Shown here: positions 14,923-41,142 of the stretch, one piece after another
Layout of the letters: each line of letters begins with the position of its first letter
How positions within the stretch are numbered: position 1 is the first letter of the stretch
Source of the DNA: a virus
Direction: 5' to 3' (one strand)
Virus record (IMG/VR): IMGVR_UViG_3300005613_000144
Span: 1-41,894 of that record
Length of the DNA: 41,894 nt
The notes under the pieces: model-generated
What the model was told of the DNA's origin: nothing
What the model saw: only the letters and a program-made list of their open reading frames with translations
The model's database searches: none
Translations under genes and position numbers: made by a program

Positions 14923-16107
14923 TTGCTCTTCCAGACGCTTGACGAAAAACAAGAATGCGTTGGGATTTATTTTGGTGATGAGTTGATTTTCAATCAGCCT
15001 CTTCCCGAAAATCTTTCTCATACTTGGTCTTATTCGGCTTTCTTGGCTGACTTGGACGTGGAGTATGCTAAGCTCTATTGCGGCTCTCAAACGCTGGATG
15101 ACGTATGTCCTGAGTCACTTAGAGACCAGTGGGATGATGTTAAAGAAAGGCTGCTTGCTTTCCATAAGTCCTTGCGAACAGCAAGGGTTGATCTTTCACA
15201 AAATTGCTTTTATGACCTGGTGCCGCAACGATTTTTGATTGAATATTGTTATGTTCGAAACCTCATAACAGATTGGGTTTTCCAGAACTTTGAGAAGCCA
15301 AAGAACTACGATTACATGCTTGATCTTACAAGAGAAATTGATCGCATTAAACATACGAAGCTTAAAATTGATTTAAGAGAACTCAATATGGTAAAGCGAG
15401 ACCATCGAGAATTCGCAAAGAAGATTCGCAAACTTAATCCTTATTGTCGTTTCAATATCAATGGAACAAGAACAGGAAGGCTAACAACAACAAAGGGAAG
15501 CTTTCCTATTCTTACATTCAAGCACGAATACAGAAGCATTCTCAAACCAAGCAATGATTTCTTTGTTGAACTTGACTTTAACGCAGCAGAAATCCGAACT
15601 CTCCTGTCTCTTCAAAACAAGCCACAACCACAAGAAGATATTCACGAGTGGAATATCAAAAATGTTTTCAGTGGAAAGGAGACCCGAGAAGAGGCTAAGC
15701 AGCGCATTTTTGCCTGGTTATATAATCCTGAGAGCACAGATCATGCCTGTGAAAGAGCGTATGACCGAAAAAATATCTTGACAAAATACTTCTCAGGTGA
15801 TAAGATTATAAACGCATTCGGAACAGAAATAGAATCAGAAAAGCGAACGGCTCTCAACTACATTATCCAAAGCACTTGTGCTGAAAACGTTTTAAGGCAA
15901 ATGATTAAAGTCTCAAAGGCTCTTCAAGGCAGCAAATCATATGTCGCTTTTCCTATTCATGATTCGATTGTGATAGACTTTTCAATGGAAGACAAAGGCA
16001 AATTGAAAGAACTTGTGAAAATCTTTTCTCAAACAGAGCTTGGCGATTTTATGGTGAACATTCGAGCAGGAAAAGATTTCGGCAACTTAAAGGATATTGA
16101 GGTTTAG
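14923..16107 (+). CDS. Short exonuclease-less family A DNA polymerase-like protein
   Basis: The 394-residue protein has the three polymerase motifs of family A. Motif A is FVELDFNAAEIRTLLS (D218), motif B REEAKQRIFAWLYN (K259) and motif C FPIHDSIVID (H346, D347). An RTGRLTT motif lies ahead of motif A. There is no 3'-5' exonuclease domain and the fingers are short, so it is less than half the length of Pol I. The start is a TTG at 14923 behind GAGGTAAGG, two nt after the upstream stop. With a Pol III alpha gene also present, it may serve in repair or gap filling. All catalytic residues I can identify are present. Confidence 0.82.
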   Translation: MLFQTLDEKQECVGIYFGDELIFNQPLPENLSHTWSYSAFLADLDVEYAKLYCGSQTLDDVCPESLRDQWDDVKERLLAFHKSLRTARVDLSQNCFYDLVPQRFLIEYCYVRNLITDWVFQNFEKPKNYDYMLDLTREIDRIKHTKLKIDLRELNMVKRDHREFAKKIRKLNPYCRFNINGTRTGRLTTTKGSFPILTFKHEYRSILKPSNDFFVELDFNAAEIRTLLSLQNKPQPQEDIHEWNIKNVFSGKETREEAKQRIFAWLYNPESTDHACERAYDRKNILTKYFSGDKIINAFGTEIESEKRTALNYIIQSTCAENVLRQMIKVSKALQGSKSYVAFPIHDSIVIDFSMEDKGKLKELVKIFSQTELGDFMVNIRAGKDFGNLKDIEV

Positions 16108-16108
16108 G

Positions 16109-16945
16109 ATGAATATTGTAGGACTCGGCGGCGCTGGTTGTAACATTGCTGATGCTTTTTCGCAATATCCGCAATACAATATCTTTAAGATCGACGTGGG
16201 TATTTCAGGCGAGCGATGCTATGGGGTTCCAAAGCTTTCCGGAGCAGAAGAATATGAGAAGCACTCGTTTCCAAAGTTGGACACTTTCTTCGGAGACATA
16301 AGAAAGAACAAAGAAGAAGTCATGTTCATTGTTGGTGGTTCCGGAGAGATCTCGTGCGCTTCTCTTAAAGTTCTCCAAAAATTAAAGAGAAATGATATCA
16401 CCGTAGTTTATGTTCAGCCAGACCTTAACATTCTAAACGAGCGACAAAAGATGCTTGAAAGGCTTGTTCGAGGAGTCTTTCAAGAATACGCGAGGTCAGG
16501 AGTATTCAAAAGACTTTTTCTAATTTCAAATCAGGCTTTGGATAACATGCTCGGCGGAGCACCAATCATTGGTTATTATGATACCTTGAATGAACTTCTT
16601 GTATCTTCTATCCATATGATCAATGTGTTCGAAAACACAAAACCTCTTGTGGGCAGTTCAAACTTCGGGAAAGAAACTCACAGAATTGTTTCCCTTGGTA
16701 TGCTCATTATGGAAGAGAATACAGAAAAAATGTTTTTTAACATTGACAACCCCCGATCAAAATGTTATCTTTATAGCATAGCCGAGGAAGAACTCAAAAC
16801 AAATAAAGAGTTATTTTCAAGGCTTAAACTTCAAGTCAAATCGAAAGAAGAGGAGAACCTTGAAGTTTCGTTCGCAATATATCCAAATGATTTTGGGCGC
16901 AATATTGCGTACATTGTTGAGAAGACACCAAGCACACAAAACTAA
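16109..16945 (+). CDS. Divergent FtsZ/tubulin-superfamily protein
   Basis: The 279-residue protein begins MNIVGLGGAGCNIADAFSQY, closely matching the first nucleotide-binding loop of FtsZ (GxGGxGxN). Residues 71-82 (VMFIVGGSGEIS) fall where FtsZ has its GGGTGTG signature, followed by a hydrophobic strand (DITVVYVQPD) and by NQALDNM (N141, D145) where FtsZ has NDxL. Order and spacing match the FtsZ GTPase domain. The T4 loop is degenerate, and no NxDxxD T7 loop is visible in the second half, so GTP hydrolysis may be lost or altered. It is coupled to the polymerase gene (1-nt gap, GAGG ribosome-binding site). Confidence 0.7.
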   Translation: MNIVGLGGAGCNIADAFSQYPQYNIFKIDVGISGERCYGVPKLSGAEEYEKHSFPKLDTFFGDIRKNKEEVMFIVGGSGEISCASLKVLQKLKRNDITVVYVQPDLNILNERQKMLERLVRGVFQEYARSGVFKRLFLISNQALDNMLGGAPIIGYYDTLNELLVSSIHMINVFENTKPLVGSSNFGKETHRIVSLGMLIMEENTEKMFFNIDNPRSKCYLYSIAEEELKTNKELFSRLKLQVKSKEEENLEVSFAIYPNDFGRNIAYIVEKTPSTQN

Positions 16946-17002: not shown

Positions 17003-17770
17003 ATGGCACTTGATATTAATAAGATTAGGCAACGACTCGAAGAAGCAAAGGGAAATGGTTCAAAGTCTAACGGGACTTATTTCTGGCGACCAACTGATGG
17101 AACCCAGGATATTCGCATTATCTCCCCAGAAGATGGCGACCCCTTCAAGGATTACTGGTTCCACTACAATCTTGGAGCAGAAAACCGTGGCGGTATTCTG
17201 TGCCCCAAGAAGAATCACGGTGAGGATTGCCCAATCTGTGATTTCAAAGACCAACTTTGGAAGGAATTTAACGAGAGCCAAGACCCTGATACCATGAAGA
17301 TGGCAAAAGACTTGACTCCTCGCCAGCGATTCTTTTCTCCTGTTGTCGTTCGCAACGAAGAAGAAAGTGGCGTTCGAGTATGGGGATATGGAAAGGAAGC
17401 TTACACTTCGCTTCTGAACCTTGTTCTTAACCCAGAATATGGTGACATTACTGATACCGAAGACGGCACCGACCTTACTCTTACATATGGTAAGCCACCA
17501 GGTGCTAATTACCCAAAGACAACTCTGACTCCTCGTCGTCGCTCTTCTCCTCTTAGCGAAGACAACTCTCGGACCCGAGAGCTTATTGGGAGTATTCCAG
17601 AATTTGACAAGCTTTTCGTTCAAAAGAGCCGGGACGAAATCCAAGGTATTCTGGATAACTTTATGAGTTCTTTGGAAGGGGCAGCCGAAGAAGACGCAAC
17701 TCCCCGCGCATCTTCTTCTGAAACCCAGACTGATGTGAACGCAGTATTCAACGAGCTTATGAACTCGTAA
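17003..17770 (+). CDS. Single-stranded DNA-binding protein (T4 gp32-like)
   Basis: The 255-residue protein has a basic N-terminus, an OB-type core with a zinc-ligand motif (CPKKNHGEDCPICDF) like that of gp32, aromatic residues typical of ssDNA contacts, and an acidic Ser/Glu-rich tail ending in FNELMNS, the usual partner-binding tail of SSBs. It coats single-stranded DNA during replication and recombination and would work with the UvsX, helicase and polymerases encoded nearby. The ribosome-binding site is AGGAG. A hairpin follows the gene. Confidence 0.88.
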   Translation: MALDINKIRQRLEEAKGNGSKSNGTYFWRPTDGTQDIRIISPEDGDPFKDYWFHYNLGAENRGGILCPKKNHGEDCPICDFKDQLWKEFNESQDPDTMKMAKDLTPRQRFFSPVVVRNEEESGVRVWGYGKEAYTSLLNLVLNPEYGDITDTEDGTDLTLTYGKPPGANYPKTTLTPRRRSSPLSEDNSRTRELIGSIPEFDKLFVQKSRDEIQGILDNFMSSLEGAAEEDATPRASSSETQTDVNAVFNELMNS

Positions 17771-17812: not shown

Positions 17813-17834
17813 AACACTTATTGTGAGAAAAGAA

Positions 17835-18734
17835 ATGACAAGCAAGACACCACTTAGATATCCAGGCGGCAAGTCTCGTGCCGTTAAGCACATTCTTCCA
17901 CATATTCCTGAAAATTGTGAAGAACTTTGCTCGCCTTTTCTTGGTGGCGCATCGGTAGAGCTTGCTGTTGCCGCAAGGGGGACGAGGGTATACGGATATG
18001 ACATCTTCGTCCCTCTTGTTTGGTTTTGGCAAGCATTGCTCAAAGACCCAGATCATTTAGCCGAACTATCAGATTCATTCAGGGTGGAAAAAGAATACGA
18101 GCACCAAGGCAAAATTGAAAAGAAAAGAGGGCTTCCTCCGGAAGCTTTTCGTGAATTCAGGAAAGAGATAAGAGAGGAGATAGAAAAAGAAGATCCTCAG
18201 TTCAGTTTTGATTTGGCAGCAAAGGTGTACGCAATCAATCGGTCCAGCTTTTCGGGAGCAACCCTTTCAGGCGGATTTTCAAAAAGAGCTTCCTATGCTC
18301 GGTTCACGGACAGTTCCATCGATAGAGTGAGAGATTTTCGTCAACCAAACTTGTCGGTTCAACAAATGGATTTCAAAGAATCTATCGCCAAACATCCTGG
18401 TGCTTTTCTTTACTTGGATCCTCCCTATATGTTCGACAAAGAGTGGATCCCAAAACATACTGATGAGAGAACAGGAAAAGTTATTGAAGGATATTGGATG
18501 GATAGAGACAAACTGTATGGCAAGGATGGTGATCTTCATTCCAGCTTTGATCACAAAGGTCTTTATGATATCCTTAGTCAAAGAGGCAATTGGGTTCTTT
18601 CATACAATGATACCCCAGAAATAAGAGATCTATATAAAGATTACGAAATCGTTGAGGCAGCATGGGCATACGGCATGAAGAATGTTACAACGAAGAAGAT
18701 GGGAAAATCATCAGAAATTTTAATTATCGCTTGA
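17835..18734 (+). CDS. D12-class DNA adenine N6-methyltransferase (Dam-like)
   Basis: The 299-residue product contains the D12-class hallmarks: KTPLRYPGGKSRAV at the N-terminus, PFLGGASVEL (AdoMet-binding motif I), AINRSSFSGATLSGGF, and FLYLDPPYMF (catalytic DPPY, motif IV). It methylates adenine in DNA, probably to protect phage DNA from host or phage nucleases. The recognition sequence cannot be deduced. The start is ATG 17835; an in-frame GTG at 17823 is possible. A methylase in the replication cluster without an adjacent nuclease is common in T4-like phages. Confidence 0.88.
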   Translation: MTSKTPLRYPGGKSRAVKHILPHIPENCEELCSPFLGGASVELAVAARGTRVYGYDIFVPLVWFWQALLKDPDHLAELSDSFRVEKEYEHQGKIEKKRGLPPEAFREFRKEIREEIEKEDPQFSFDLAAKVYAINRSSFSGATLSGGFSKRASYARFTDSSIDRVRDFRQPNLSVQQMDFKESIAKHPGAFLYLDPPYMFDKEWIPKHTDERTGKVIEGYWMDRDKLYGKDGDLHSSFDHKGLYDILSQRGNWVLSYNDTPEIRDLYKDYEIVEAAWAYGMKNVTTKKMGKSSEILIIA

Positions 18735-18780: not shown

Positions 18781-19923
18781 ATGGCAAAAGCAAAGGCAAA
18801 GGCAGGCAAGCTTTCACTTGCGGAAATACAAAAGAACATTAATAAAAAAGCGGGTATGAATGTCGCTCACAATTTGAATGAGGCAAACCCAACAGAAGTA
18901 AAGCAGTGGATCCCGACTGGCTCTCGTTGGCTTGATTCAATTATTTGTAAGGGTCAATATGCGGGTATTCCGGTTGGAAAGATTGTAGAAATCGCAGGAT
19001 TAGAAGCAACCGGAAAGTCTTATATGGCTGCCCAAATCGCCGCTAATGCTCAGAAAGAAGGAATAGATGTTGTTTATTTTGATTCCGAGTCCGCCATTGA
19101 CCCCAGCTTCTTGGAAAGAGCAGGATGTAATTTAGACAACCTGCTTTATATCCAGGCAAAGTCTGTCGAGTTTGTTCTTGAAACAATTGACGATCTCCTG
19201 AAAGTTGATAATCAATTTCTTTTTGTTTGGGATTCCTTGGCTTTGACTCCGGTTGAACAAGAAGTCCAAGGCGACTTTGACCCTATGTCTCAGATGGCGA
19301 TGAAGGCTCGTGTTCTCGCTCGTGCGATGTCTAAGCTTACAATCAATATCGCAAACAAGCAAGCTACTTTGCTCGTCTTGAATCAGTTGAAGACGAACAT
19401 TACGAGAATCGCAGCAGAGGCAATGACAACGCCATATGTCACTCCCGGTGGAAAAGCTATGGCTTATGCTTATTCTTTACGGATTTGGCTCACTGGTCGA
19501 AAAGCAAAAGCAAGCTATGTGTTAGACGACAACGGCTTCCGTATCGGATCCGAAGTAAAGGTGAAACTTGAAAAGTCTCGCTTTGGGACTGCCGGTCGTC
19601 AGTGTAACTTCCGTATTCTTTGGGGGACTGATGATGCCGCTATCCAAGATGATGAATCACTGTTTGACGCAGTAAAAGGCTCAAACAGCATTCTTCAATC
19701 TGGTGCTTGGTATGCTTTGGTTCACGATGATGGACAAGAAGAAAAGTTCCAAGCCGCCAAGTGGGTTGAGAAGATGCAAAATGATAAATTCCGACAACGT
19801 GTTTATCAGATCATGGATGAAGAGGTCATCATGAAATTCCATACTCGTGAGGGTAACGCAGAAGATTTCTACGATAACGATGATGATGCCCAAGTAGAAG
19901 AAAATACTTTTGCTGTTGAATAA
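18781..19923 (+). CDS. uvsX: UvsX/RecA-like recombinase
   Basis: The 380-residue protein has a basic N-terminus and a RecA fold. Walker A is GLEATGKS (K79, S80); Walker B lies at FLFVWDSLAL; an L1/L2-type region precedes TPYVTPGGKAMAYAYS; and there is an acidic C-terminal tail (NDDDAQVEE). It forms filaments on ssDNA and drives strand exchange, replication restart and repair, acting with the SSB. It has its own consensus promoter immediately upstream. The symbol follows T4 usage; RecA-type naming would be equally valid. Confidence 0.93.
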   Translation: MAKAKAKAGKLSLAEIQKNINKKAGMNVAHNLNEANPTEVKQWIPTGSRWLDSIICKGQYAGIPVGKIVEIAGLEATGKSYMAAQIAANAQKEGIDVVYFDSESAIDPSFLERAGCNLDNLLYIQAKSVEFVLETIDDLLKVDNQFLFVWDSLALTPVEQEVQGDFDPMSQMAMKARVLARAMSKLTINIANKQATLLVLNQLKTNITRIAAEAMTTPYVTPGGKAMAYAYSLRIWLTGRKAKASYVLDDNGFRIGSEVKVKLEKSRFGTAGRQCNFRILWGTDDAAIQDDESLFDAVKGSNSILQSGAWYALVHDDGQEEKFQAAKWVEKMQNDKFRQRVYQIMDEEVIMKFHTREGNAEDFYDNDDDAQVEENTFAVE

Positions 19924-20434: not shown

Positions 20435-21082
20435 GGAAAGCAGTCTTCAAAAGCAAAATATGAAAAGATGGTTTCTGAGTTGGGCTACCTTGAAGCTGAC
20501 TTGGAATATCACAAGACTTTGATGAACGAAAGTCAAGCAGCTTTCGAAGATGCTCTTGATGAAACGGCAAAAAAGAAAGGCGTTAATTTAAACAGAGGCA
20601 AGCCAAAGTCAAAGAAAGGTCCACCCCCTCAGAGAAGCACCAAAAAGAACAAGAAGAGAAAGCCAAGAAAGAAAACAAAAGATCTTTACAAGAAGATCGC
20701 AAGCGCTGCTCATCCAGATAAACTTCTTGATTGCTCCGACGAAGAAAGGGAAAGAAAGCAAAGGCTTTTTGTTGAGGCTTCCAAGGCACTTGAAGAAGAT
20801 ATGATCTTGACTCTTCACAAGCTTGCCAAGGAAGTTGGAGTTGATCCAGGTGACCTTGACGATGAAGACCTTGAAACTTTCAAAGTCCAAATCGAAGACT
20901 TAAAGAAAAAGATTTCACAATTAGAATCGACTTGGATATGGGCTTGGATCAACGCCGAAGAAGAGCAACAAAGAGACCACATCATAGAGAAATTTTTAGA
21001 ATCACTCTTGACAGCACAGCAACAAGAAGATAAGATAGAAGAACATGGAGAGGAAGAAAATGAAGAGGCTGGTGGTAATTGA
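20432..21082 (+). CDS. J-domain (DnaJ-like) protein
   Basis: The 216-residue product has a coiled-coil N-terminus, a Lys/Pro-rich linker (about residues 50-85), and a J-domain-like segment DLYKKIASAAHPDKLLDCSD with the HPD signature at residues 94-96, followed by helices and an acidic C-terminus. J domains stimulate Hsp70 ATPase, so it may recruit host DnaK for phage assembly or replication. The ATG at 20432 lacks a ribosome-binding site and lies in an inverted repeat; an alternative ATG at 20468 also keeps the J domain. The C-terminus overlaps the next gene by 23 nt. Confidence 0.78.
   Translation: MGKQSSKAKYEKMVSELGYLEADLEYHKTLMNESQAAFEDALDETAKKKGVNLNRGKPKSKKGPPPQRSTKKNKKRKPRKKTKDLYKKIASAAHPDKLLDCSDEERERKQRLFVEASKALEEDMILTLHKLAKEVGVDPGDLDDEDLETFKVQIEDLKKKISQLESTWIWAWINAEEEQQRDHIIEKFLESLLTAQQQEDKIEEHGEEENEEAGGN
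21008..21036 (+). promoter_or_regulatory. Weak sigma70-like promoter before the 5' nuclease gene
   Basis: TTGACA (21008-21013), 17-bp spacer, TAAGAT (21031-21036), inside the end of the J-domain gene and 24 nt before the nuclease start. The -10 matches only four of six positions, so this is tentative. Confidence 0.35.
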
Positions 21083-22016
21083 TGCTCTTAATGCTTATTT
21101 CAGGGCTTACATTGTAAATCCCAGTCTTTCTACCAGTGGTCAGCCAATTGGTGGCTACAAGGGCTTTATTGGTATTTTACAGAAGCTTTGTAGAGAGATG
21201 CGACCTGATGAGATTGTAATTGCTTGGGACGGCGCAGGCGGTTCTGCGAGAAGAAAAACTGTTAACAAGAACTACAAAGAAGGCAGAAAGCCTATTCGTC
21301 TCAATCGCGGAGTCAAGAATCTCACAGAAGACCAAGAAATGCATAATAAAGTCTGGCAACAGCAAAGGCTCATGGAGATGCTTAACTATTGCCCAGTAAT
21401 TCAACTAATGGTCGATGGTACAGAAGCAGATGATATCATCTCATATGTTTGTCAGCATCACAAGTATGATGGTTGGCAAAAGATTATTGTATCCAGTGAT
21501 AAAGATTTCTTTCAACTTTGCGATGACGAGACGGTTATTTACAGACCAATCCAGAAAACCTTTATGAATAAGCCAAGAATCATTGAAGAGTTTGGTATTC
21601 ATCCGGAAAACTTTGCTCTCGCCCGTGCTATCGCTGGCGATGCTTCTGATAATCTCGAAGGTGTTCCCAGCGTTGGATTGAAAACGATTTCCAAAAGAAT
21701 GCCCTTCTTCATTGAGGAAGAGCAGGTAACATTCAATAAGTTATTTGAGCACTGTAAGAACGACAACACAAGATTAAAAGCTTACAACTCTATTTTGGAA
21801 TCAGAAGAGATCATAAAAGAAAACTATAAGATTATGCAGTTATACACGCCAAGCATCTCTGTTGACGGAACAATGAGAATAGATTACGCGCTTGAAAACT
21901 TTGAACCAGAATTTAACAAAACAGAAATTATTGTAAGAATACAAGAAGACGGGTTCGACAAATACAACTTCGATGACCTCTTTGCGACTTTCAAAAGAAT
22001 CATAAAAGATCATTGA
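21060..22016 (+). CDS. 5'-3' exonuclease / RNase H (FEN family, T4 rnh-like)
   Basis: The 318-residue protein has the acidic metal-binding motifs of the 5' nuclease family: VIDALNAYFRAY at the N-terminus, IAWDGAGGSARR, VDGTEADDIISY, VSSDKDFFQL and IAGDASDNLEGVPSVGLKT (helix-hairpin-helix). It removes RNA primers and flaps during lagging-strand synthesis. ATG 21060 is chosen because GGAGAGGAAG lies just upstream; the upstream in-frame ATG at 21045 would leave no ribosome-binding site. It overlaps the J-domain gene. Confidence 0.9.
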   Translation: MKRLVVIDALNAYFRAYIVNPSLSTSGQPIGGYKGFIGILQKLCREMRPDEIVIAWDGAGGSARRKTVNKNYKEGRKPIRLNRGVKNLTEDQEMHNKVWQQQRLMEMLNYCPVIQLMVDGTEADDIISYVCQHHKYDGWQKIIVSSDKDFFQLCDDETVIYRPIQKTFMNKPRIIEEFGIHPENFALARAIAGDASDNLEGVPSVGLKTISKRMPFFIEEEQVTFNKLFEHCKNDNTRLKAYNSILESEEIIKENYKIMQLYTPSISVDGTMRIDYALENFEPEFNKTEIIVRIQEDGFDKYNFDDLFATFKRIIKDH

Positions 22017-22061: not shown

Positions 22062-23417
22062 ATGTCAAAAGAAGACTTTAGCCAATATGGAAAAAGTTTT
22101 CAAGAAAGCTTATGTCATTTGATTTTGATAGATCGTCCCTTTGCGGATCAGATCTTTGAAGTAATGGACATCAACTTCCTTGAATTAAAATACCTTCAGA
22201 CTTTTGTTGAACTTGTGGTGAATTATAGAGAGAAGTTCTCTGTTCACCCTTCTCAGGAAATCATGAAGTCGGTCCTGAGAACAGAACTTGAGAAGTACCC
22301 AGAAGCAATCCAGGAACAAGTTCGCCATTATTTTGCGAGGATTCACAAGTCTGATCCAGCGGATACTGAATATATCAAGCATACTTCTCTTGATTTTTGT
22401 AGGAAGCAGAAATTAAAAGAGGCAATGCTCAAATCTGTGAAGCTGCTGAAAAGCTCTTCCTTTGATGAGATCTCGGATGTAATCAATAAGGCTCTTATTC
22501 TTGGCTCTAATTCTGATCTTGGCTACGATTATATCAAGGACTTCGAGAAAAGATTCGAGTTCAAATCCCGAGACCCAATCTCAACAGGTTGGCCAGAAGT
22601 TGATGCTATTACTCACCAAGGGCTTGGAAAGGGCGAACTCGGTGTTGTTATCGCCCCAACTGGTGCTGGTAAGTCTATGGCTCTTGTTCATCTTGGTGCT
22701 CAGGCGGTCAAGGCAGGAAAGAATGTGGTTTATTATACGTTGGAATTATCAGAAACTGTAATTGGTTCTCGTTTTGATAGTTGTATTACAAAAGTACCAC
22801 TTAATGATTTGAGGATGTTCAAGGAAGAGATCTACGAAAAGGTCCAAATGATCGAAGGCAAGCTGATTGTCAAAGAGTATCCAACCAAGTCAGCCAGCAC
22901 AAATACGCTGAAAGCGCACCTTGAAAAGTTAAAAAATAGAGATTTTAAGCCCGATATGATTCTCGTTGACTATGGAGATTTATTACGTCCTTCTTCGAAT
23001 TTAAGGGAGAAAAGGCACGAGTTGGAGACTATTTACGAACAGCTTCGCGGCTTAGCGCAAGAGTTTGAATGCTGCATTTGGACTGCCTCGCAAACAAACA
23101 GATCTGGGCTAAACGCAGAAGTTATTACGATGGAATCAATTAGCGAGGCATTCAATAAGTGTTTTGTAGCGGACTTTATCTTTTCAATTTCGAGAACCCC
23201 AGAGGACAAGAAATTGGACACAGGTAGAATCTTCATAGCAAAGAACAGGAACGGCGCAGACGGTATCATCTTCCCGATCAAGATGAGCACCAGAAACGTC
23301 TCTATCGAAGTTTTGGCTTCTACTGGCGAAAGCATAGGAGAAGTTCAGCAGGATGCCAAGAAGAGACAAGAGAAGAAATTAGTTGAACTTTATAGAAAGA
23401 ACAAAAAGGGGAAATAA
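22062..23417 (+). CDS. Replicative DNA helicase (DnaB/T4 gp41-like)
   Basis: The 451-residue protein has an N-terminal helical domain and a RecA-type ATPase core with Walker A APTGAGKS (K204), an E-bearing segment (YYTLELSE), Walker B MILVDYGDLL, and WTASQTNRSG (motif H3/sensor region). It matches DnaB-family hexameric helicases without a primase domain. It unwinds the fork ahead of the phage polymerase. No intein or insertion is seen here, although the equivalent gene is a known intein site in some phages. Confidence 0.92.
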   Translation: MSKEDFSQYGKSFQESLCHLILIDRPFADQIFEVMDINFLELKYLQTFVELVVNYREKFSVHPSQEIMKSVLRTELEKYPEAIQEQVRHYFARIHKSDPADTEYIKHTSLDFCRKQKLKEAMLKSVKLLKSSSFDEISDVINKALILGSNSDLGYDYIKDFEKRFEFKSRDPISTGWPEVDAITHQGLGKGELGVVIAPTGAGKSMALVHLGAQAVKAGKNVVYYTLELSETVIGSRFDSCITKVPLNDLRMFKEEIYEKVQMIEGKLIVKEYPTKSASTNTLKAHLEKLKNRDFKPDMILVDYGDLLRPSSNLREKRHELETIYEQLRGLAQEFECCIWTASQTNRSGLNAEVITMESISEAFNKCFVADFIFSISRTPEDKKLDTGRIFIAKNRNGADGIIFPIKMSTRNVSIEVLASTGESIGEVQQDAKKRQEKKLVELYRKNKKGK

Positions 23418-23418
23418 T

Positions 23419-25662
23419 ATGTCAATTAGCACGCTTCAAGAGTATACAAGAATCGCAAAGTACGCAAAGTACTTGCCGGATATGCAGAGACGAGAAACTT
23501 GGAAAGAACAAGTCAATCGCGTTTTCGATATGCATAGGGAACAGTTCGCCGATATCGAAGGTATCGAGCAGTATATCGCAGAAGCAGAAGCCGCTGTTAT
23601 GAGGAAGGAAGTCCTTGGCTCACAGCGCATCCTTCAGTTTGGCGGCAAGCCAATCTTCAAACACAATGCTCGTGTTTATAACTGTGGTTTTGGTCACATC
23701 AATCGAGTCCGCGCATTTCAAGAGTTGATGTATCTTTTGCTTTGTGGCTGCGGCATTGGATTTTCTGTCCAGCAGCATCACGTTGCCGAACTTCCCCATA
23801 TCCAAAGGGTTGATAAGTCTGATACGGCAACCTTCGTTGTTCCAGATACAATTGAAGGCTGGGCTGATGCTATTGGCGTTGTGATGACAAGCTATCTTGG
23901 AGACAATCCAGACTTCCAAGAGTATTACGGAAAGAATGTTATTTTTGATTACTCCGAGATTCGTCCCGAAGGTTCCCCGCTTTCTTCTGGAACAAAGGCT
24001 CCGGGACCAGATGGTCTTCGTCGTTCCATCGAGAAGATCCGCGAAGTTCTTGAAAGGAGAGTCGGCACACAAGAGACTACCCCAATCCGACCAATTGATG
24101 TCTACGATGTCATTATGCACGCTGCTGACGCTGTTATCTCTGGCGGCGTTCGTCGTTCAGCAACCATCGCACTCTTCTCCCCAGAAGACGAAGAGATGGC
24201 GACGGCGAAGACTGGTGCTTGGTTTATGGAGAATCCTCAACGTGGTCGCTCCAATAACAGCGCCCTCTTGGTTCGCAACAAGACTACAAAGGCACAATTC
24301 GACAAGCTTATGAAGAGTGTTCGTGAGTTTGGTGAGCCTGGTTTTGTTTGGGCAGAGAGCACAGAGATGGGATTCAACCCTTGTGTTGAAATCGGTCTTT
24401 ATCCTGTCGATGTTGAAACTGGAAAGTCTGGTTGGCAATTCTGTAACCTCGCAGAGATCAACGGCAAGAAGGCAAACACGCCAGAAAAGTTCTATGATGC
24501 TTGTCGTGCTGCTTCTATTATTGGAACCCTTCAAGCTGCCTACACAAGTTTCCCTTACGTTGGTGAGACGACAGAAAGAATCACAAGACGAGAAGCCCTC
24601 CTTGGAGTTTCGGTCACAGGTTTGATGGATAATCCTGATGTCCTTTTTGATGCCGATGTTCAAAAGCAAGGAGCAGAGATTGTAAAGCAAACCAATGCTC
24701 ACATTGCTGACATCCTCGGTATTAATCACGCAGCAAGAACTACTTGCGTCAAGCCAGCAGGTTCTACAAGTTGTATTCTTGGTACAGCTTCTGGTATTCA
24801 CCCACATCATGCTAAGCGATACTTCCGCCGAGTTCAGGCAAATGTTCAAGAAAACCCAGTTCAACACTTCAAGCAGTTCAATCCGCGAGCAGTTGAGCAA
24901 TCTGTTTGGGATCCAAATGGAGTCACAGAAGTCATCACTTTCCTTTGTGAAGTTCCAGTCGGAGCAAAGACAAAGAATCAAATTGATGCTCACAAGCTTC
25001 TTGAAAGCGTCAAGGCAACTCAGCAGAACTGGGTTCTCAATGGGACAAACAAGGAACTCTGCGCTCAGCCGTGGCTCTCTCATAATGTTTCCAACACCAT
25101 TCACGTTCGCGAAGACGAATGGGAATCTGTTGCGGACTACATTTATGAAAACCGCGCACACTTCGCAGGCATCTCCCTCCTTCCAGCATCTGGCGACAAG
25201 GACTATCCACAGGCTCCATTCTGTGCCGTTCCTTATCCAACAGATATTTTGAGAGAATACGGAGCGGGTTCCTTCTTCGCTTCCGGAATCATCGAGAGCG
25301 CTCTCGCAGCGTTTGACGGAAACCTCTGGGAAGCAACAAGTTGTCTTCTTGGTATGGGGCAGCCAATCGAAGAACTCTCGCCAGTTCGCCGCGAATGGGT
25401 CACAGCAGCCATTAAGTTTGCTGACAGCCACTTCGAAGGCAATACAAGAAAGATGACTTACTGTTTGAAGGATGTCTATAACCTCAAGCTCTGGGAAAAG
25501 CTTTCACAAGAATACCAAGATGTTGACTGGACTCTTATGACCGAAGAGGATGACCAGGTAGATTTCCAGCAAGAATCTGCTTGCGCAGGAGGGGCTTGCG
25601 AGTTACCTGCTGAATATCTTGAGGCAATTAGGTCCGAGACAACCCAAGAAGAAACTATTTAA
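23419..25662 (+). CDS. nrdJ: Adenosylcobalamin-dependent (class II) ribonucleotide reductase
   Basis: The 747-residue protein resembles monomeric class II reductases. Seen are CGCGIGFSVQ, the SGGVRRSA loop, the radical-site motif FNPCVEI (N320, C322, E324), ARTTCVKPAGSTS and a C-terminal redox pair CAGGAC (C722, C727). It converts ribonucleotides to deoxyribonucleotides using B12 and works with or without oxygen. ATG 23419 follows AAGGGG; the in-frame TTG at 23383 is inside the helicase gene. It supplies precursors for the replication genes around it. No intein interrupts it. Confidence 0.93.
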   Translation: MSISTLQEYTRIAKYAKYLPDMQRRETWKEQVNRVFDMHREQFADIEGIEQYIAEAEAAVMRKEVLGSQRILQFGGKPIFKHNARVYNCGFGHINRVRAFQELMYLLLCGCGIGFSVQQHHVAELPHIQRVDKSDTATFVVPDTIEGWADAIGVVMTSYLGDNPDFQEYYGKNVIFDYSEIRPEGSPLSSGTKAPGPDGLRRSIEKIREVLERRVGTQETTPIRPIDVYDVIMHAADAVISGGVRRSATIALFSPEDEEMATAKTGAWFMENPQRGRSNNSALLVRNKTTKAQFDKLMKSVREFGEPGFVWAESTEMGFNPCVEIGLYPVDVETGKSGWQFCNLAEINGKKANTPEKFYDACRAASIIGTLQAAYTSFPYVGETTERITRREALLGVSVTGLMDNPDVLFDADVQKQGAEIVKQTNAHIADILGINHAARTTCVKPAGSTSCILGTASGIHPHHAKRYFRRVQANVQENPVQHFKQFNPRAVEQSVWDPNGVTEVITFLCEVPVGAKTKNQIDAHKLLESVKATQQNWVLNGTNKELCAQPWLSHNVSNTIHVREDEWESVADYIYENRAHFAGISLLPASGDKDYPQAPFCAVPYPTDILREYGAGSFFASGIIESALAAFDGNLWEATSCLLGMGQPIEELSPVRREWVTAAIKFADSHFEGNTRKMTYCLKDVYNLKLWEKLSQEYQDVDWTLMTEEDDQVDFQQESACAGGACELPAEYLEAIRSETTQEETI

Positions 25663-32591: not shown

Positions 32592-33344
32592 AGAAATGTT
32601 ATTTACAAGATACGAATCGAAGGATGTGAAAGGTTTTACATAGGATCGGCGGTTGACTTCAAAAAGAGAAGACTTCATCACCTATCAGAACTCCGCCGCT
32701 CTGCCCACAACAACAGACACTTACAAAGAATATTTGAAAAATATGGAGAAGACAGTTTCTCTTTTCAAATTCTGGAAGAGGTTTCAAAATCTGAGTATCT
32801 TTTAGAGGCAGAGCAGAAGTGGATTGATAAATTCGATTTCTCCCTGCTAATAAACATTTGTCAGAAGGCGGGCAACACTTTGGGTAGGAAACATACAGAA
32901 AGTGCAAAGCAAAAAATAAGCGAGAATCATCACGATGTTTCTGGCGAGAATAACCCAATGTTTGGGAAAAGAGGAAACCTTAGTCCGAACTATGGTAAGT
33001 CTCACTCCGAAGAGACAAAGAGAAAAATCTCAGAAGCCACCAAGGGCAGAGAGAGTGTCTGGAAAGATAAAAAAAGACCAGAGCATTCTGAACTTATGGC
33101 AGGTGAAAACAACCCATTTTATGGAAAGAGCCATTCCGATGAGGCAAGGGCAAAGATATCAAGCAAAGCAAAAGAAAGAGTAATGTCAAGAGGTGGTCAG
33201 AAAATCAACATAGACATTGCTCGTGAGATCAGAGCGCGTTATAATGAAGGTGGGGTTACAATCACCGCACTCGCAAAAGAATACGGACTATCAAGAACTT
33301 ATTGTGGAAAACTTTTAAAAGGAGAATATTGGAATGAAGATTGA
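32589..33344 (+). CDS. GIY-YIG homing endonuclease with NUMOD3 repeats
   Basis: The 251-residue protein has a GIY-YIG catalytic domain at the N-terminus ([20 protein letters not shown], then a charged helix with [11 protein letters not shown]). At least three NUMOD3-type DNA-binding repeats follow ([44 protein letters not shown]), and a C-terminal helix-turn-helix ([20 protein letters not shown]). It is a free-standing mobile endonuclease; its target is probably the adjacent dnaE gene, whose start it overlaps by 11 nt. Confidence 0.9.
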
Positions 33345-34920
33345 TCCGGTCGCTGACAAAGTACCATACGTTAACCTACACGCCCACACAGTTATGGGTT
33401 CTATTTTTGATGCTATTGGGTATCCCGAAGAGCATTTTAATTTTTGCTATGAGAATGGTGGCGATGCGATGGCGATCACGGATCACGGAAATATGAATTC
33501 CGTTCCTGCTGCTGTCCTACACGTCCAGAAAATGAAAGCGGAAGGCAAGAACTTTAAGCCAATCTTTGGTGTAGAAGCTTATTTCATTCCATCAATTGAA
33601 GAGTGGAAGCACGAATATGAAGAAGCAAAGAAAGACAAAAAGCGAAGTAAAACACTTGCCAAAGAAGTTACTGCGACGACTGTTGAGGACGAAGCTGCGA
33701 GTAAGAAAGCAGTTCGAAACATTCTCAATAGAAGGCGACATCTTATTCTCCTTGCGCAAGATCAAGAAGGATTGAACAATCTCTTCGGTCTAATCTCAGA
33801 ATCGTTCAAGCCAGGGAATTATTATCGATATCCCCGTGTCGATTATAAGATGCTAAAAAAGTATTCTAAGGGCGTCATGGCGGCATCTGCTTGCTTGGGC
33901 GGTGTCTATGCTGGAAACTTCTGGGAAAACCGCGAGGAGGGCGAAGAAGCGGTCCTGAACGCAATGCGAGACACCACAAGGAACATGATGGACATCTTTG
34001 GTGATCGCTGGTTTGGCGAGCTTCAATGGAACAATGTCCCAGAACAACATCAGCTTAATAAACATATCATTCGGATGCACAAAGAGTTTGGAATCAAGCT
34101 TATCTCGACTTCTGACTCGCACTATCCAAACCCAGATGCTTGGAAGGACCGCGAACTTTATAAGCGTCTTGGTTGGCTTGGTAAGTCAAAGCCTGCTTAT
34201 GAAAGCTCGGATCTTCCAGAGGGGACCGAAGAAATTGGATATGAACTCTTCCCTCGTAATGGAAATCAAATGTGGGAAGCTTACAAGAAGTATTCTCAAG
34301 AGTGTGGAGTTGAATACGATGACAATCTTGTATTGGAATCTATCACGAACACTCACATGATCGCACATCAAATGGTGGATGATTTCCTTCCAGACAACGA
34401 AGTTCGTCTGCCTGACTTTGTTGTTCCTGCTGGTGAGACTTCTGACTCTGCTTTGGAAAAGTTCTGTATGGAAGGTCTTCGCCTCAAAGGTCTTCATGAT
34501 AATGAAGAATACACTGAACGACTTCGTATGGAGCTTGGAGTTATCGCTGCTCGTGGTTTCTCAAAGTACTTCCTAACAATGGAGCAGATCAGCACAAAAG
34601 CAAAGCAAATGATGCTTACCGGACCTGGACGTGGTTCTGCTGCTGGCTCTCTTGTTGCTTATGCTCTGGACATTACCCAAGTAGATCCTCTCAAATATGG
34701 TCTTCAGTTCTCTCGCTTCATGATTGCTACGCCTCTCATCGGTATTATTGATGAAAATAGCGATACGAAACAAAAGACAGAGGCGGTCCAATTCGAGACA
34801 GACAGTGGTAAGACCATCACGCTCTCGCCAGAAGTAGAGATAAAGGTAAAAAGAAACGATAGTATCATCTCGACTCTCGTCAAGAACTTACAAATAGGTG
34901 ATGAAATATTATCGGCATAA
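33334..34920 (+). CDS. dnaE: DNA polymerase III alpha subunit, N-terminal half (split)
   Basis: The 528-residue half contains the PHP domain ([38 protein letters not shown]), the thumb/palm region, and [20 protein letters not shown]. Homology to DnaE ends at FSRFM (residues 459-463), just before where PDIDYD should follow. The last 65 residues are intein-like and end at TAA 34918. The remaining catalytic part is encoded from 35928. Alone it lacks the catalytic aspartates. The start overlaps the GIY-YIG gene; AAGGAG precedes it. Confidence 0.9.
34726..34917 (+). other. Reduced intein-like segment at the end of the DnaE N-half
   Basis: About 64 residues after the polymerase homology include [20 protein letters not shown] and [12 protein letters not shown]. 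These resemble intein block B and its following strands (GxxIxLTPxH ... LKxGDEI). The usual block A (Cys or Ser first residue plus about 30 residues) is missing, and the block B His is Val. If polymerase spacing is kept as in E. coli (six residues between FL/FM and MPD), the intein would begin at A465. Confidence 0.5.
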
Positions 34921-34932
34921 AAAGGCTACCCT

Positions 34933-34943
34933 ACTATTTACTA
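34933..34943 (+). promoter_or_regulatory. Candidate late promoter motif ACTATTTACTA before the LAGLIDADG gene
   Basis: Exact copy of the motif found before the sheath and GIY-YIG genes, followed directly by ATAGGAGGATAGG, the ribosome-binding site region. CTACCCTA (34926-34933) can pair imperfectly with TAGGAGGATAG, so a weak RBS-hiding structure like that of the GIY-YIG gene is possible. Confidence 0.45.
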
Positions 34944-34961
34944 ATAGGAGGATAGGCGATT

Positions 34962-35927
34962 ATGAGATATCAAAATAAGAACGAAGAATACTTCACTAAA
35001 ACTAACAAACATAACTCTTACTGGGCAGGCTTTATTGGAGCAGACGGTTATGTAAACGAGGACAAGAATACTCTACAAATAAGTCTTTCCGCAAAAGATA
35101 AAGAGCATTTAGAAAAGCTAAAAAATGAATTAAACAAGGACTATGAAATAAAAACCAGAAAGAATACTGGTCCTTGGGCAGCAGAGGAAACCTATTACTG
35201 CTCGCTTTGTTTTATTTCTGAGCGAACTGTGGAGGCACTAAAAAGAAACTGGAAGATTCATCAAAGAAAAACACATACCTTAACCTTTCCGCAAGACATC
35301 TCAATAGAAGAAAAGAAAGGTTATTTGTGTGGATACATCGATGGAGATGGTTGTATAAATGTGAAAAAGAACTCTCGTGGAAAAATACAACTTTCCATAA
35401 ATGGAAATGAAGAATTCTTAGAAGGTGTAGTGAAGTTTCTAAAAGAAGAAGGCGGAATAAAAATAAAGAATAATCTTTATCCAAGCAGGAATATTTTCGT
35501 TTTCTCGGTACTTGGTAAAACAGCACTTTCAGTTCTGGACTTTCTATATGATGAACATTTACCATTAATGGAGAGAAAGTGGGCGAAGTATCTGGACAAC
35601 AAGGAGAGGAGATTTGGACAATACATTCCATGGACGAAGGAAGAAGAAATAGTATTGCGTGAGAACTATGAAAAAAGTAGTTCAGTAGAACTTCATAAGA
35701 AGTTTTTCAGCAACAGGAGTTTCTTCTCAGTAGAAAAAAAGATAACAGAAATGGGATTAACGAAGAGACCTCAGCCACAGAAGATCTGGACAGAAGAGGA
35801 AGATGAGAAATTTGTTGAAGCATTAAAAAATAACTTGACTTCCAGAGTCATTCATGAGACACTATTTCCGTATCGCACTTTTAGTTCAATAAGAAACAAG
35901 AGAAACAAATTAGTAAAGAGAGGATAA
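34962..35927 (+). CDS. LAGLIDADG homing endonuclease between the dnaE halves
   Basis: The 321-residue protein has two LAGLIDADG-type motifs, SYWAGFIGADGYV and GYLCGYIDGDGCI, about 105 residues apart, each with its catalytic acidic residue. The C-terminal third has two Trp-bearing Myb/SANT-like helical units (IPWTKEEEIVLRENY and KIWTEEEDEKFVEAL), probably extra DNA-binding modules. It has its own motif and ribosome-binding site and is not fused to the polymerase. Its site between intein-like halves is where an endonuclease domain sits in a full-length intein. The stop directly abuts the GTG of the C-half. Confidence 0.88.
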   Translation: MRYQNKNEEYFTKTNKHNSYWAGFIGADGYVNEDKNTLQISLSAKDKEHLEKLKNELNKDYEIKTRKNTGPWAAEETYYCSLCFISERTVEALKRNWKIHQRKTHTLTFPQDISIEEKKGYLCGYIDGDGCINVKKNSRGKIQLSINGNEEFLEGVVKFLKEEGGIKIKNNLYPSRNIFVFSVLGKTALSVLDFLYDEHLPLMERKWAKYLDNKERRFGQYIPWTKEEEIVLRENYEKSSSVELHKKFFSNRSFFSVEKKITEMGLTKRPQPQKIWTEEEDEKFVEALKNNLTSRVIHETLFPYRTFSSIRNKRNKLVKRG

Positions 35928-36029
35928 GTGAAAATAACGAACATTACTTTTTTGGAAGAAGCAGAGAGGGGTATCGTTCCGGTTCCTGCGGGTACATCAA
36001 AGACTATCGAAGGCATACAAGTAAGGAAT
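35928..36029 (+). other. Reduced intein-like segment at the start of the DnaE C-half
   Basis: The 34 residues before the polymerase homology end in IEGIQVRN, followed by TKDTNMPDIDYD. This resembles the intein C-terminal block (xxGIxVHN, then Cys, Ser or Thr), with Asn34 as last intein residue and Thr35 as +1 nucleophile. The penultimate His is Arg, and the block F consensus is poorly kept. The match is suggestive, not proven. Confidence 0.5.
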
Positions 36030-38075
36030 ACAAAAGATACCAATATGCCTGATATAGATTATGACGTAGCAGACTCCATGCATTTGAAGGAAACTCTTGT
36101 TCAAGACTGGGGTGATGATAAGGTTGCTCCTATCTCAAACTGGAATACACTTCAGCTTAAATCTCTTATCAAGGACATCTCAAAGTTCTACGGCATTCCG
36201 TTCACAGAAGTTAATTCTGTCACATCGGCAATGGTTGGAGAAGCAATTGGTCCAGCTAAGAAGAAGCACGGTCTTGCGGCTGGTCTTTACAATCCAACCT
36301 TTGAAGACCTTATGGAGTTCAGCGATTCTTTGAAGAACTTCTTGGCGAAGTATCCAAATGTGAAGACTCACGTTGAAACACTTGTTGGTCAAGTTCGGAG
36401 TTGTTCCCGACATGCTGGCGGCGTTGTGGTTGCTGAGAGCTTGGACTCCCGTATGCCGTTGATTAACTCTGGTGGTGTTCGCCAAACTCCTTGGTCTGAG
36501 GGGCAGAACGTTCGACACCTTGAACCAATGGGTTTCATTAAGTTCGACCTTCTTGGATTATCAACCTTGAAGATGATTGAGGGTGCTATCTCTCATATCC
36601 TTCGTCGCCATCACGGGATTGAAGACCCAACATTCGAAGACATTAAGAAATACTACGATGCTAACCTTCATCCAGATGTGATTGACCTGAACGACCAAAA
36701 GGTATATGAAAACATTTTCCACAAAGGAAAGTGGGCAGGAGTGTTCCAATTCACAGAGACTGGTGCTCAAAACTTCTGTGTTGAGGCTAAACCAAAGAAT
36801 CTGATTGACTTGGCGGCTATTACTTCCATCTATCGTCCTGGTCCGCTCTCTGCGAATGTCCACGTTGATTATGTTGAGTCGAAGAATAATCCTCAGTATG
36901 TCAAGTATATCAACAAAGAACATCAAGATATCACAGAAGAGACCTATGGATATCTTATCTTCCAAGAGCAGATTGCTTCCATGGCTCATCGTCTTGGAAA
37001 GAATATCAGTCTTGATGAAGGTAATCTTCTTCGTAAGGTCTTGACCAAGAAGGGTACAGGTAAGGGCGCACAGGTCAAAGAATCACTGCGAATGCGATTC
37101 ATTGAGGGCTGTGTAGAAAAAGGAATGAAGAAGACAACTGCTCAAAGGCTTTGGGAAAAGTTTGAATACTTCAATGCCTACGGCTTCAACAAGTCTCACG
37201 CAGTTTCTTACTGTATTATTTCTTACCAGTGTGCTTGGCTTCTGAACTATTACCAGTCAGAATGGATGGCAGCATTCCTCGACAAAGAACCAGAGTCAAG
37301 AAAAGAAAAGGCAATCAACATCGCGAAGTCTTTCGGCTTCAAGATTCGCAGCCTGAACGTCAACTCTTCGGGTCGTGTCTGGGAAATCTCAGAGGATGGT
37401 ACAACCCTCATTCAGCCATTGTCTTCTGTCAAGGGATTAGGTGATTCAGCGATTGACCAGATTGTTCGTAACCGACCATTCAATACAATCGAGGACTTCC
37501 TGTTCAATGAAAACGTGGTTTACTCAAAGCTGAACAAGAAGGCGCTTGATGTTCTTTGTCGCTCCGGTGCTCTTGATTCCTTGATGGATGATCGCTTCAC
37601 TGGTGGAAAGCATTTCTGGTCTGCTATTTGTGTTGACCGACCTCGGAAGCCAAAGAACCTGGAAGAGAACATTGTTCTTTATCGTCCAGAAGGCGCATTC
37701 TCAGATGAGGAAAAGATTAGTTATCTTGTTGAGCTAACTGGTGTTTTCCCGTTCGACCGAGTGATGAAGGAAGATCTTTACAAGAAGCTAAAAGAAAATA
37801 TGATCCCATCCATCGCAGAATATAATCCAGATTACGGAGATGTTGTTTGGTTTATTCCTCGCAAGGTTGTTCCAAAGAAGACAAAGAATGGAAAGGATTA
37901 CTGGATTCTCGAAGTTATTGACGATACAAACAGTCTTACAAAGGTTCGATGTTGGGGCATTGGTGAACACGACATGGTTCACCTGAATCGTCCTTACATG
38001 GCGAAGCTGGACTACAATGGCAAGTGGGGATTCTCGACAAGAAATTTACGAAGGAATTTTAGGATTCTTGCTTGA
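35928..38075 (+). CDS. dnaE: DNA polymerase III alpha subunit, C-terminal half (split)
   Basis: The 715-residue half starts at GTG 35928. After a 34-residue intein-like lead it carries MPDIDYDVAD (D42, D44 equal the catalytic E. coli D401 and D403), SRHAGGVVVAES, FIKFDLLGLSTL, GVFQFTETGAQNF, SIYRPGPLSA, QEQIASMA and AYGFNKSHAVSYCIISYQ. Helix-hairpin-helix (PLSSVKGLGDSAI) and OB-fold (near residues 625-710) domains follow. All conserved polymerase motifs I can check are intact. It must join or pair with the N-half to work. Confidence 0.92.
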   Translation: MKITNITFLEEAERGIVPVPAGTSKTIEGIQVRNTKDTNMPDIDYDVADSMHLKETLVQDWGDDKVAPISNWNTLQLKSLIKDISKFYGIPFTEVNSVTSAMVGEAIGPAKKKHGLAAGLYNPTFEDLMEFSDSLKNFLAKYPNVKTHVETLVGQVRSCSRHAGGVVVAESLDSRMPLINSGGVRQTPWSEGQNVRHLEPMGFIKFDLLGLSTLKMIEGAISHILRRHHGIEDPTFEDIKKYYDANLHPDVIDLNDQKVYENIFHKGKWAGVFQFTETGAQNFCVEAKPKNLIDLAAITSIYRPGPLSANVHVDYVESKNNPQYVKYINKEHQDITEETYGYLIFQEQIASMAHRLGKNISLDEGNLLRKVLTKKGTGKGAQVKESLRMRFIEGCVEKGMKKTTAQRLWEKFEYFNAYGFNKSHAVSYCIISYQCAWLLNYYQSEWMAAFLDKEPESRKEKAINIAKSFGFKIRSLNVNSSGRVWEISEDGTTLIQPLSSVKGLGDSAIDQIVRNRPFNTIEDFLFNENVVYSKLNKKALDVLCRSGALDSLMDDRFTGGKHFWSAICVDRPRKPKNLEENIVLYRPEGAFSDEEKISYLVELTGVFPFDRVMKEDLYKKLKENMIPSIAEYNPDYGDVVWFIPRKVVPKKTKNGKDYWILEVIDDTNSLTKVRCWGIGEHDMVHLNRPYMAKLDYNGKWGFSTRNLRRNFRILA

Positions 38076-39379: not shown

Positions 39380-40186
39380 ATGGCGTTCAAGACAGACGGC
39401 AGTTCTCATAAGAACGGTGTAAAATTAGAAGAAAAAACCATCGATATTCTCGGCAGCAACAAAAAACTTCAGCGCGCCGTCTGCGGAGAATTTGAATTTC
39501 GCAATGCAGAAAAGGTCGGAGGTACAAGATTTTTAGAAGATATTCGAGTCGATACTACATCTGGTCCAATCGGGCTTTCGGTAAAGCGACGTAAGGGGAA
39601 ATCTGGAACCTTTGATTGGGCGAATACTTCTAAGCTCGCTAAGGTTTTATTAAATGAGAATCACGATTTGAGCGCTCTTATGCACACCTTGAAAGGTAAA
39701 TATAAGCATACCCCGCGCAACGTGCTCATCAAGGAAAAGTATGAGAAGGAGTTGGATAATCATTTTTCAGAAGCAGTCCAGTCTCTATCACATCAATCAA
39801 TAAAATCCATGCTTTCTTATGTGGTAGGAAAATACACTGACATAAACATGAACATGAAGGTGTGCGTTTATCGAGAGTTTTCGAGTCAATATGTAGTTTA
39901 TGACTTTGAGGATATTTGGTGGACTGATTTGATGAATTGTGAAGGCAGCTTCTTTACAAAAGGAAAGCCCAATTCTAAATCTAGAGTAATATGGTTCAGG
40001 CACGCTGATGGTCAAGAAGTCAATACTCATTTGCGTATTCGAGTTGGATTAAATAATGGAGTCTCCGCCCTACTTGGAGGAAAAGACTGGAGTTCAAATT
40101 CGACCTCGCAAGTAGTAGTAAAGATTCAGCAAGATAAGACACACTCTATTGTTCCAGTATCAGCAAAAGTGGTGGACATGCAATGA
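39380..40186 (+). CDS. Candidate restriction endonuclease (PD-(D/E)XK-like)
   Basis: The 268-residue product has KVGGTRFLEDIRVDTTSGPI followed by GLSVKRRKGKSGTFDW: D54, then S67-V-K69 on the next strand, matching a PD-(D/E)XK core in which Ser replaces the first acidic residue, plus Glu17/18 upstream. GTFDWANTSK resembles DNA-contact loops of some type II enzymes. It overlaps the downstream methylase by 4 nt (ATGA) and shares its promoter, the usual order of a restriction-modification operon. ATG 39380 has AAGGAG 5 nt upstream. Enzyme identity is inferred, mainly from the coupling to a methylase. Confidence 0.55.
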   Translation: MAFKTDGSSHKNGVKLEEKTIDILGSNKKLQRAVCGEFEFRNAEKVGGTRFLEDIRVDTTSGPIGLSVKRRKGKSGTFDWANTSKLAKVLLNENHDLSALMHTLKGKYKHTPRNVLIKEKYEKELDNHFSEAVQSLSHQSIKSMLSYVVGKYTDINMNMKVCVYREFSSQYVVYDFEDIWWTDLMNCEGSFFTKGKPNSKSRVIWFRHADGQEVNTHLRIRVGLNNGVSALLGGKDWSSNSTSQVVVKIQQDKTHSIVPVSAKVVDMQ

Positions 40187-41142
40187 GCTTTAAGATAATT
40201 CATGGAGACTCATCAGAGATTTTAAAATCTATCGAGGAAAGCTCCTGCGTCGATGCAATATATTTTGATCCTCCCTTTAACACAGGTAGGGATTTTACTC
40301 TAAATCCAGACAACGATTTGGGTTTTGGAGATAAGTTCGATTCTGATGGGGATTATGAAAGTCTAATTGAGTCCGTAATATCGGAATGCGCTCGTCTCTT
40401 GAAAAAAGATGGCTCTTTGTTTTTCCACATTTCAGCAGAAGAGATGCTTATTCCACACAAGGTTTGTAGTAAATATTTTACCCGCATTCAGCCGATATTC
40501 TGGCAAAGGTCTCGCTCGAAAAATAATGTAAAGAAAAAATTAGGATCTGTGGTAGATGTGATATTCTGGTGTTCTAAGTCCAAAACACCAAAATATAACT
40601 TAATTTATCAGCAGCTAGATGAATATTACGCACAAAATTCTTACAAGAATGAGGATGAAAGGGGCTTCTACGCCCTTGGGCACATTGTCTACAGCAAAAC
40701 ACAGAAATCAAAGGATCCAGCCAGATATTATAAGATTGAAGTCGCTGGCAGAACATTTGAGCCATCTTATGGATGGAGAGTACCAAAAGAAGAATTAGAT
40801 GCCCTCTTGGCAGAAAATAAAATTCATATTCCACAAAAGAAGGGAAATCTGTACCGAAAAATTTACAAGCACGAATCAAAAGGAAAGCCAGCAACAAACC
40901 TGTGGGATGATATACACTCGATTGCGATGGGCAGCGAGGAAAGAAAATATCCAACGCAAAAGCCACTGTCTTTATTGGAGAGGATCATTTCAATGTCTAG
41001 CGACCCTGGCGATGTAATCCTGGATCCTATGGCTGGGTCAGGAACCACCGGAGTTGCTGCCCTTCGCATGGGTAGAAAAGTAATTCTAATAGATAAAAAT
41101 CCAGATGCAATAAAAATAATGAAAGAAAAGTTTGACAAGTAG
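40183..41142 (+). CDS. DNA methyltransferase, beta class (N6-adenine or N4-cytosine)
   Basis: The 319-residue product has motif IV early (AIYFDPPFNTG, DPPF at residues 29-32) and the AdoMet motif I late (VILDPMAGSGTTGVAALRMG), with YPTQKPLSLLERII between them. This permuted order defines the beta class of amino-methyltransferases. DPPF does not separate adenine from cytosine specificity. It probably protects DNA against the enzyme encoded just before it. It is unrelated in class to the D12 methylase at 17835. Confidence 0.9.
   Translation: MSFKIIHGDSSEILKSIEESSCVDAIYFDPPFNTGRDFTLNPDNDLGFGDKFDSDGDYESLIESVISECARLLKKDGSLFFHISAEEMLIPHKVCSKYFTRIQPIFWQRSRSKNNVKKKLGSVVDVIFWCSKSKTPKYNLIYQQLDEYYAQNSYKNEDERGFYALGHIVYSKTQKSKDPARYYKIEVAGRTFEPSYGWRVPKEELDALLAENKIHIPQKKGNLYRKIYKHESKGKPATNLWDDIHSIAMGSEERKYPTQKPLSLLERIISMSSDPGDVILDPMAGSGTTGVAALRMGRKVILIDKNPDAIKIMKEKFDK

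Follow-up and report, generated by a model that had tools for sequence, protein, structure and literature searches.

The window analysed here is the whole 41,894-nucleotide stretch of the virus record IMGVR_UViG_3300005613_000144. Positions 16109..16945 of its plus strand encode a protein, referred to here as TUB, for which a minimal tubulin/FtsZ fold is predicted. The open reading frame begins at an ATG (16109), a start methionine common to the full-length homologues, and specifies 278 amino acids followed by a stop codon ending at 16945. An earlier note had given 279 residues; the reading frame is real, but the stop had been counted as a residue.

TUB lies within a series of replication genes, all on the plus strand. 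The core of an A-family DNA polymerase (14923..16107, 394 amino acids; Pfam PF00476, E 1.2e-15; PHROG DNA polymerase) precedes it, and the polymerase stop (16107) falls one base before the TUB ATG. Downstream are a gp32-type single-strand DNA-binding protein (SSB; 17003..17770; Pfam PF08804, E 4.6e-14; PHROG 1192), an accessory DNA methyltransferase (17823..18734; PHROG 56) present in 9 of 108 loci, a UvsX/RecA-type recombinase (18781..19923; PHROG 97), a 5’-3’ exonuclease (21045..22016; Pfam PF02739), a DnaB-type replicative helicase (22062..23417; PHROG 19) and a ribonucleotide reductase (RNR; 23383..25662; PHROG 367). A second DNA methyltransferase gene is found at 40183-41142, in addition to the one at 17823-18734. 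Upstream, the window encodes a tail sheath and a tape-measure-like protein, which in a 41.9-kb virus record indicates that it comes from a contractile-tailed phage.

Scanned with the single TUB protein, IMG/VR yielded 38 loci at 32–96% identity; with the TUB alignment it yielded at least 594 matching stretches. Records carrying TUB include contigs of up to about 204 kb. Compared with close homologues, TUB has a dN/dS of 0.055–0.068 (about 0.06), similar to the 0.053 of the DNA polymerase, and is therefore under strong purifying selection. Together with the number of IMG/VR relatives and a predicted tubulin/FtsZ fold spanning the full length, this ratio indicates that the reading frame did not arise by chance. 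In one locus (L163) the HMM of the TUB family matched twice, each time partially, which possibly reflects a frameshift or a broken copy.

Searches of Pfam, PHROGs and PDB sequences with the TUB protein and with its profile gave no significant match. The best Pfam Tubulin (PF00091) score, E 0.019 in 2 of 25 family members, lies below the gathering cut-off, and the window’s own TUB did not match this family. In the INPHARED copy used, tblastn with the TUB protein, its consensus or its polymerase returned no match, and no isolated phage there was found to carry TUB. A pattern scan of GTDB genomes found no relative and so gave no clue to the host; psbA was absent from 12 TUB-carrying relatives in which it was sought, so that cyanophage hosts are not indicated. 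A full-text literature search, in which subscription papers and preprints are thinly covered, found no description of the family.

Predicted fold and nearest relatives

An AlphaFold2 model of TUB, built from a 25-sequence alignment, reached a pLDDT of 94.0 and a pTM of 0.92. A second model, of a family member 32% identical to TUB, again gave the tubulin/FtsZ fold (pLDDT 91.7). Foldseek comparison with the PDB returned 470 matches below 1e-3, with E values down to 1.4e-12, and the best 50 of the 470 were all FtsZ, TubZ or tubulin. VIA-align spanned residues 1–278 with Z scores of 24.6 for CetZ, about 23 for TubZ, about 22 for FtsZ and about 21 for tubulin; in both models the scores lie at 21–25 over the full length. 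The GTPase domain, core helix H7 and activation domain that define the fold are thus all present in the predicted structures, and by modelled fold TUB is a member of the tubulin/FtsZ superfamily. This strongly supports the superfamily assignment of the earlier note, which had named structure prediction as a check; an NAD-binding or Rossmann enzyme, the outcome that would have spoken against it, is rejected by the same matches.

The best structural match is the archaeal cell-shape protein CetZ (3zid, 4b45), which aligns along the full length (255 residues at 3.0 Å for 3zid). However, identity is only 12–15%, TUB lacks T3, a full T4 and T7/H8, and it is encoded in a phage replication operon. TubZ (2xka, 4ei7) shares the two-domain fold and, like TUB, is found on extrachromosomal replicons, but TUB has neither the T7 acid nor the long C-terminal helices or tail. 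Nor is there an adjacent tubR, as a tubZRC system has; in every locus that could be tested, the neighbours of TUB are polymerase and SSB. FtsZ resembles TUB in fold (TMq about 0.7), in the T1-like GLGxAGCN, in the T2 aspartate and in an IPN-type asparagine, whereas its GGGTGTG, GAGA, N.DFAD and C-terminal peptide are missing from TUB. The FtsZ-like start that had been attributed to TUB therefore holds for the T1 loop; the nearest folds by Z score are CetZ and TubZ, and the signature motifs of FtsZ are not found.

Known phage tubulins are PhuZ, from jumbo phages, and TubZ, from plasmid-like phages. A survey of 224 jumbo phages reported two distinct representatives of the phage tubulin family (PMC7824862). 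TUB shares with PhuZ a phage-encoded tubulin fold and, by hhalign, a similar T1 region (GGAG..I, ID), but it has no LDxxD in T7 and no acidic C-terminal tail, and the structural match is weaker (TMq about 0.5). Among viral structures the best match was A0A6J5RW92 (TMq 0.78), annotated ‘FtsZ’ in an uncultured Caudovirales phage; at 452 amino acids and 10% identity to TUB, it belongs by sequence to a separate family. Judged by its motifs, TUB is neither FtsZ, PhuZ nor TubZ.

Nucleotide-site motifs and missing elements

Conservation was counted over 74 non-redundant TUB members; all positions given here are on the plus strand. In the T1-like loop GLGGAGCN (residues 5–12, 16121..16144), G5 and G7 are invariant and A9, G10 and C11 of the family form GLGxAGC nearly so. 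D29 (16193..16195), the T2-loop aspartate, is kept in 73 of 74 members; it follows strand 2, aligns with the aspartate of FtsZ NTD and is paired by hhalign with the PhuZ ID. N141 (16529..16531) is invariant and aligns by profile with N165 (IPN) of E. coli FtsZ, a position occupied by asparagine in all nine FtsZ control sequences. Core helix H7, assigned from the secondary structure of the model (residues 156–175, 16574..16633), contains N161, which is also invariant (74/74). N161 aligns with an H7 position of FtsZ and tubulin (186 in the E. coli FtsZ numbering used) that is aspartate or asparagine in the FtsZ sequences fetched. The two positions, that of FtsZ N165 and this one in H7, contact guanine in FtsZ and tubulin.

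The T1 glycine loop, T2 aspartate, asparagine before H6 and asparagine or aspartate in H7 that characterize the superfamily are thus all found in TUB. The profile alignment between TUB and FtsZ is weak (hhalign probability 3%, P 0.013), while the elements come in the order seen in the predicted secondary structure; the assignment of nucleotide contacts is based on both. The invariant residues suggest that TUB is likely to bind a guanine nucleotide.

Other parts of the canonical site have been shortened or lost. The T4-like loop GGSGEIS (residues 76–82, 16334..16354) falls two residues short of GGGTGTG when the profiles are aligned. G77 and G79 are each kept in 68 of 74 members and S82 in 61, giving a family consensus of G-x-[IV]-S in place of the FtsZ motif. 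The T3 GAGA of FtsZ is absent from TUB members. At the place of the T7 loop and H8 (residues 176–192, 16634..16684), the stretch from H7 to the next strand is equally long in all 74 members and contains no helix in either AlphaFold2 model. No conserved acid was found between residues 178 and 192, the best column being acidic in 49 of 74 members. In the controls, D209 and D212 are kept in 9/9 FtsZ sequences and LDxxD in 5/5 PhuZ sequences; neither NxDFAD with a following H8 nor LDxxD occurs in TUB. Many members do have an acid at residue 186 or 189, and the catalytic acid may have been relocated. The chain ends 0–12 residues beyond the last conserved glutamine, which leaves no FtsZ linker or C-terminal peptide, PhuZ acidic tail or TubZ helix.

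The motif reading of the earlier note therefore stands: GLGGAGCN, GGSGEIS and NQALDNM occur in the order given there and are conserved in the family, the T4 loop is indeed degenerate, and the T7 catalytic loop was correctly reported as not visible.

At the subunit interface of known protofilaments, the same space is taken up by T7, S9 and the base of H8 (PMC3678025). Canonical trans-subunit hydrolysis and dynamic filaments are not likely for TUB, as judged from the alignment and the models. With T4 shortened and T3, the T7 acids, H8 and the C-terminal tail missing, TUB probably does not form a canonical GTP-hydrolysing dynamic filament; a non-hydrolysing assembly is possible.

These losses bear on the idea that TUB is a phage cytoskeletal filament, a GTP polymer that positions replicating phage DNA and adjoins the polymerase gene for co-expression. 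PhuZ and TubZ act in this way (PMC4244570, PMC3678025), the predicted two-domain tubulin-type fold of TUB is complete, and PhuZ-family models are among its viral structural matches. However, the elements that are absent from TUB but retained in the PhuZ and FtsZ controls include those that build the interface of known protofilaments. In addition, no relative of the phiKZ chimallin (gp54) was found in nine contigs of 74–194 kb, in a search with one sequence over contigs that are perhaps incomplete. A PhuZ-type dynamic spindle is disfavoured because both catalytic and interface elements are missing, and the filament explanation as a whole is considered unlikely, though it keeps some weight. The DNA-centring filament offered in the earlier note is, given the absence of T7/H8 and the place of TUB in a replication operon, less likely than a role linked to the replisome.

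Linkage of TUB to its polymerase

The gene order polA-TUB-SSB-uvsX-exonuclease-dnaB-RNR on one strand recurs across 108 loci. Among 184 loci, a figure in which about a dozen contigs fetched by two scans are counted twice, the polymerase is upstream and SSB downstream of TUB in every locus with enough flanking sequence. In nearly half of the loci the end of the polymerase gene overlaps or directly adjoins the beginning of TUB, with offsets commonly of -4, -10, -13 or +1. Most of the others have a gap of about 300 bases, taken up by a MazG-like ORF of about 100 amino acids. An ORF of about 86 amino acids, WYL_2/SH3-like (GTF.K.NG..R.M.FV), is seen between TUB and SSB in some of the relatives (loci L023, L024, L062, L080 and L100).

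The MazG/PRA-PH-like ORF (LVRDKIPEIIE..., for example in L010, L013, L014, L053 and L145) raises the possibility that TUB is a non-polymerising guanine-nucleotide sensor or enzyme built on a tubulin fold, acting for instance on nucleotide pools near RNR and the MazG-like gene. The loss of polymer-interface elements would suit such a protein, as would the frequent position of this ORF between polymerase and TUB and the unusual invariants Q125, Y127, R129, S130 and H169, which do not fit FtsZ motifs. However, the MazG-like match is below the Pfam cut-off (E 0.015), the gene is missing from about half of the loci, the window included, and we know of no metabolic enzyme with a tubulin fold. This explanation is regarded as improbable.

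Loci were also chosen again by polymerase alone, to remove selection bias. TUB was downstream in 78 of 80 such loci, and the contigs of the other two end 15 bases and 1.6 kb past the polymerase, the latter distance being within the range of insertions seen in other loci. Coupling to the DNA polymerase gene, as proposed in the earlier note, is strongly supported by the adjoining A-family polymerase and by this linkage across loci.

Two phages with comparable replication modules were considered as TUB carriers and rejected. Flavobacterium phage immuto and Microcystis phage Mel-JY01 both have their modules in the same order, and neither genome contains TUB; 80 immuto-type loci also contained none. 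The polymerase of immuto shows 19% identity to the alignment's first row. In immuto (L113), positions 1346-2318 contain two unrelated small ORFs where other loci have TUB, with the polymerase on one side and SSB on the other. In these two phages and 80 loci, TUB is absent outside its polymerase lineage.

TUB is thus a core gene of the replication operon and not a moron. It tracks its polymerase wherever contigs permit checking, unlike PhuZ, which is dispensable in part of its family: a third of the nucleus-forming phages lack it (PMC10299810).

This setting weighs on a further explanation, that TUB acts on host FtsZ during infection, binding or capping it and so preventing septation. An FtsZ fold with degenerate T4 and T7 surfaces could cap a filament. 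However, TUB has a fixed core place between polymerase and SSB, is under strong purifying selection across a very diverse family and has no FtsZ-like C-terminal peptide. Known phage inhibitors of FtsZ, such as T7 Gp0.4, are by contrast small accessory early proteins. Division inhibition is held to be quite improbable: since TUB is a core replication-operon gene, and given that T7/H8 is absent, the host-FtsZ poison of the earlier note is less likely than a replisome-linked role.

A proposed role in the phage replisome

The reading preferred here, with middling confidence, is that TUB represents a third, minimal family of phage tubulins and serves the phage replisome as an accessory or scaffold that binds a guanine nucleotide. 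TUB would be a single-copy core gene in a large lineage of uncultured contractile-tailed phages; its product would be made together with the short A-family polymerase and the gp32-type SSB and would most likely act at the replisome or replication focus. The protein is predicted, with high confidence, to fold as a two-domain tubulin-type molecule. Its invariant residues suggest that it would bind a guanine nucleotide through T1, the T2 aspartate, the shortened T4 and asparagines 141 and 161. As T3, the T7 acid and H8 are missing, it would not carry out canonical trans-subunit GTP hydrolysis, and would for that reason be a nucleotide-gated accessory or a static scaffold and not a treadmilling motor. 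It may then organise or assist the adjacent polymerase and SSB machinery, a step suggested by genomic linkage; the operon position may instead mirror the timing of expression and not physical interaction. A precedent is the actin relative AlpC, a cytoskeletal protein that helps phage replication (PMC4446434).

A more specific version, in which TUB is an obligate, non-hydrolysing, guanine-nucleotide-gated subunit or scaffold working directly with the truncated A-family polymerase and the gp32-type SSB, is put forward only tentatively. If true, TUB would be the first tubulin relative to serve DNA synthesis and not movement or division. The family is separate from PhuZ and TubZ and far more stripped down; hundreds of metagenomic phages carry it, no library annotates it and no cultured example was found. 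It raises the questions of whether a tubulin fold can be functional without T7/H8 and whether a cytoskeletal protein can reside inside replication machinery.

The window carries two DNA polymerases. In addition to the 394-residue A-family core, which has no exonuclease domain match, there is a C-family enzyme (PolIII alpha) at 33334-38075. This DnaE/PolIII-alpha-type gene is fractured, and no Rfam intron was found in the region. ORF 33334-34920 has at its end an apparent N-terminal part of an intein and is followed by a free LAGLIDADG ORF (34962-35924); at the beginning of ORF 35928-38075, a possible C-intein (..GIQVRN/T) precedes DnaE sequence. This arrangement resembles the known ‘fractured gene’ layout of split inteins.
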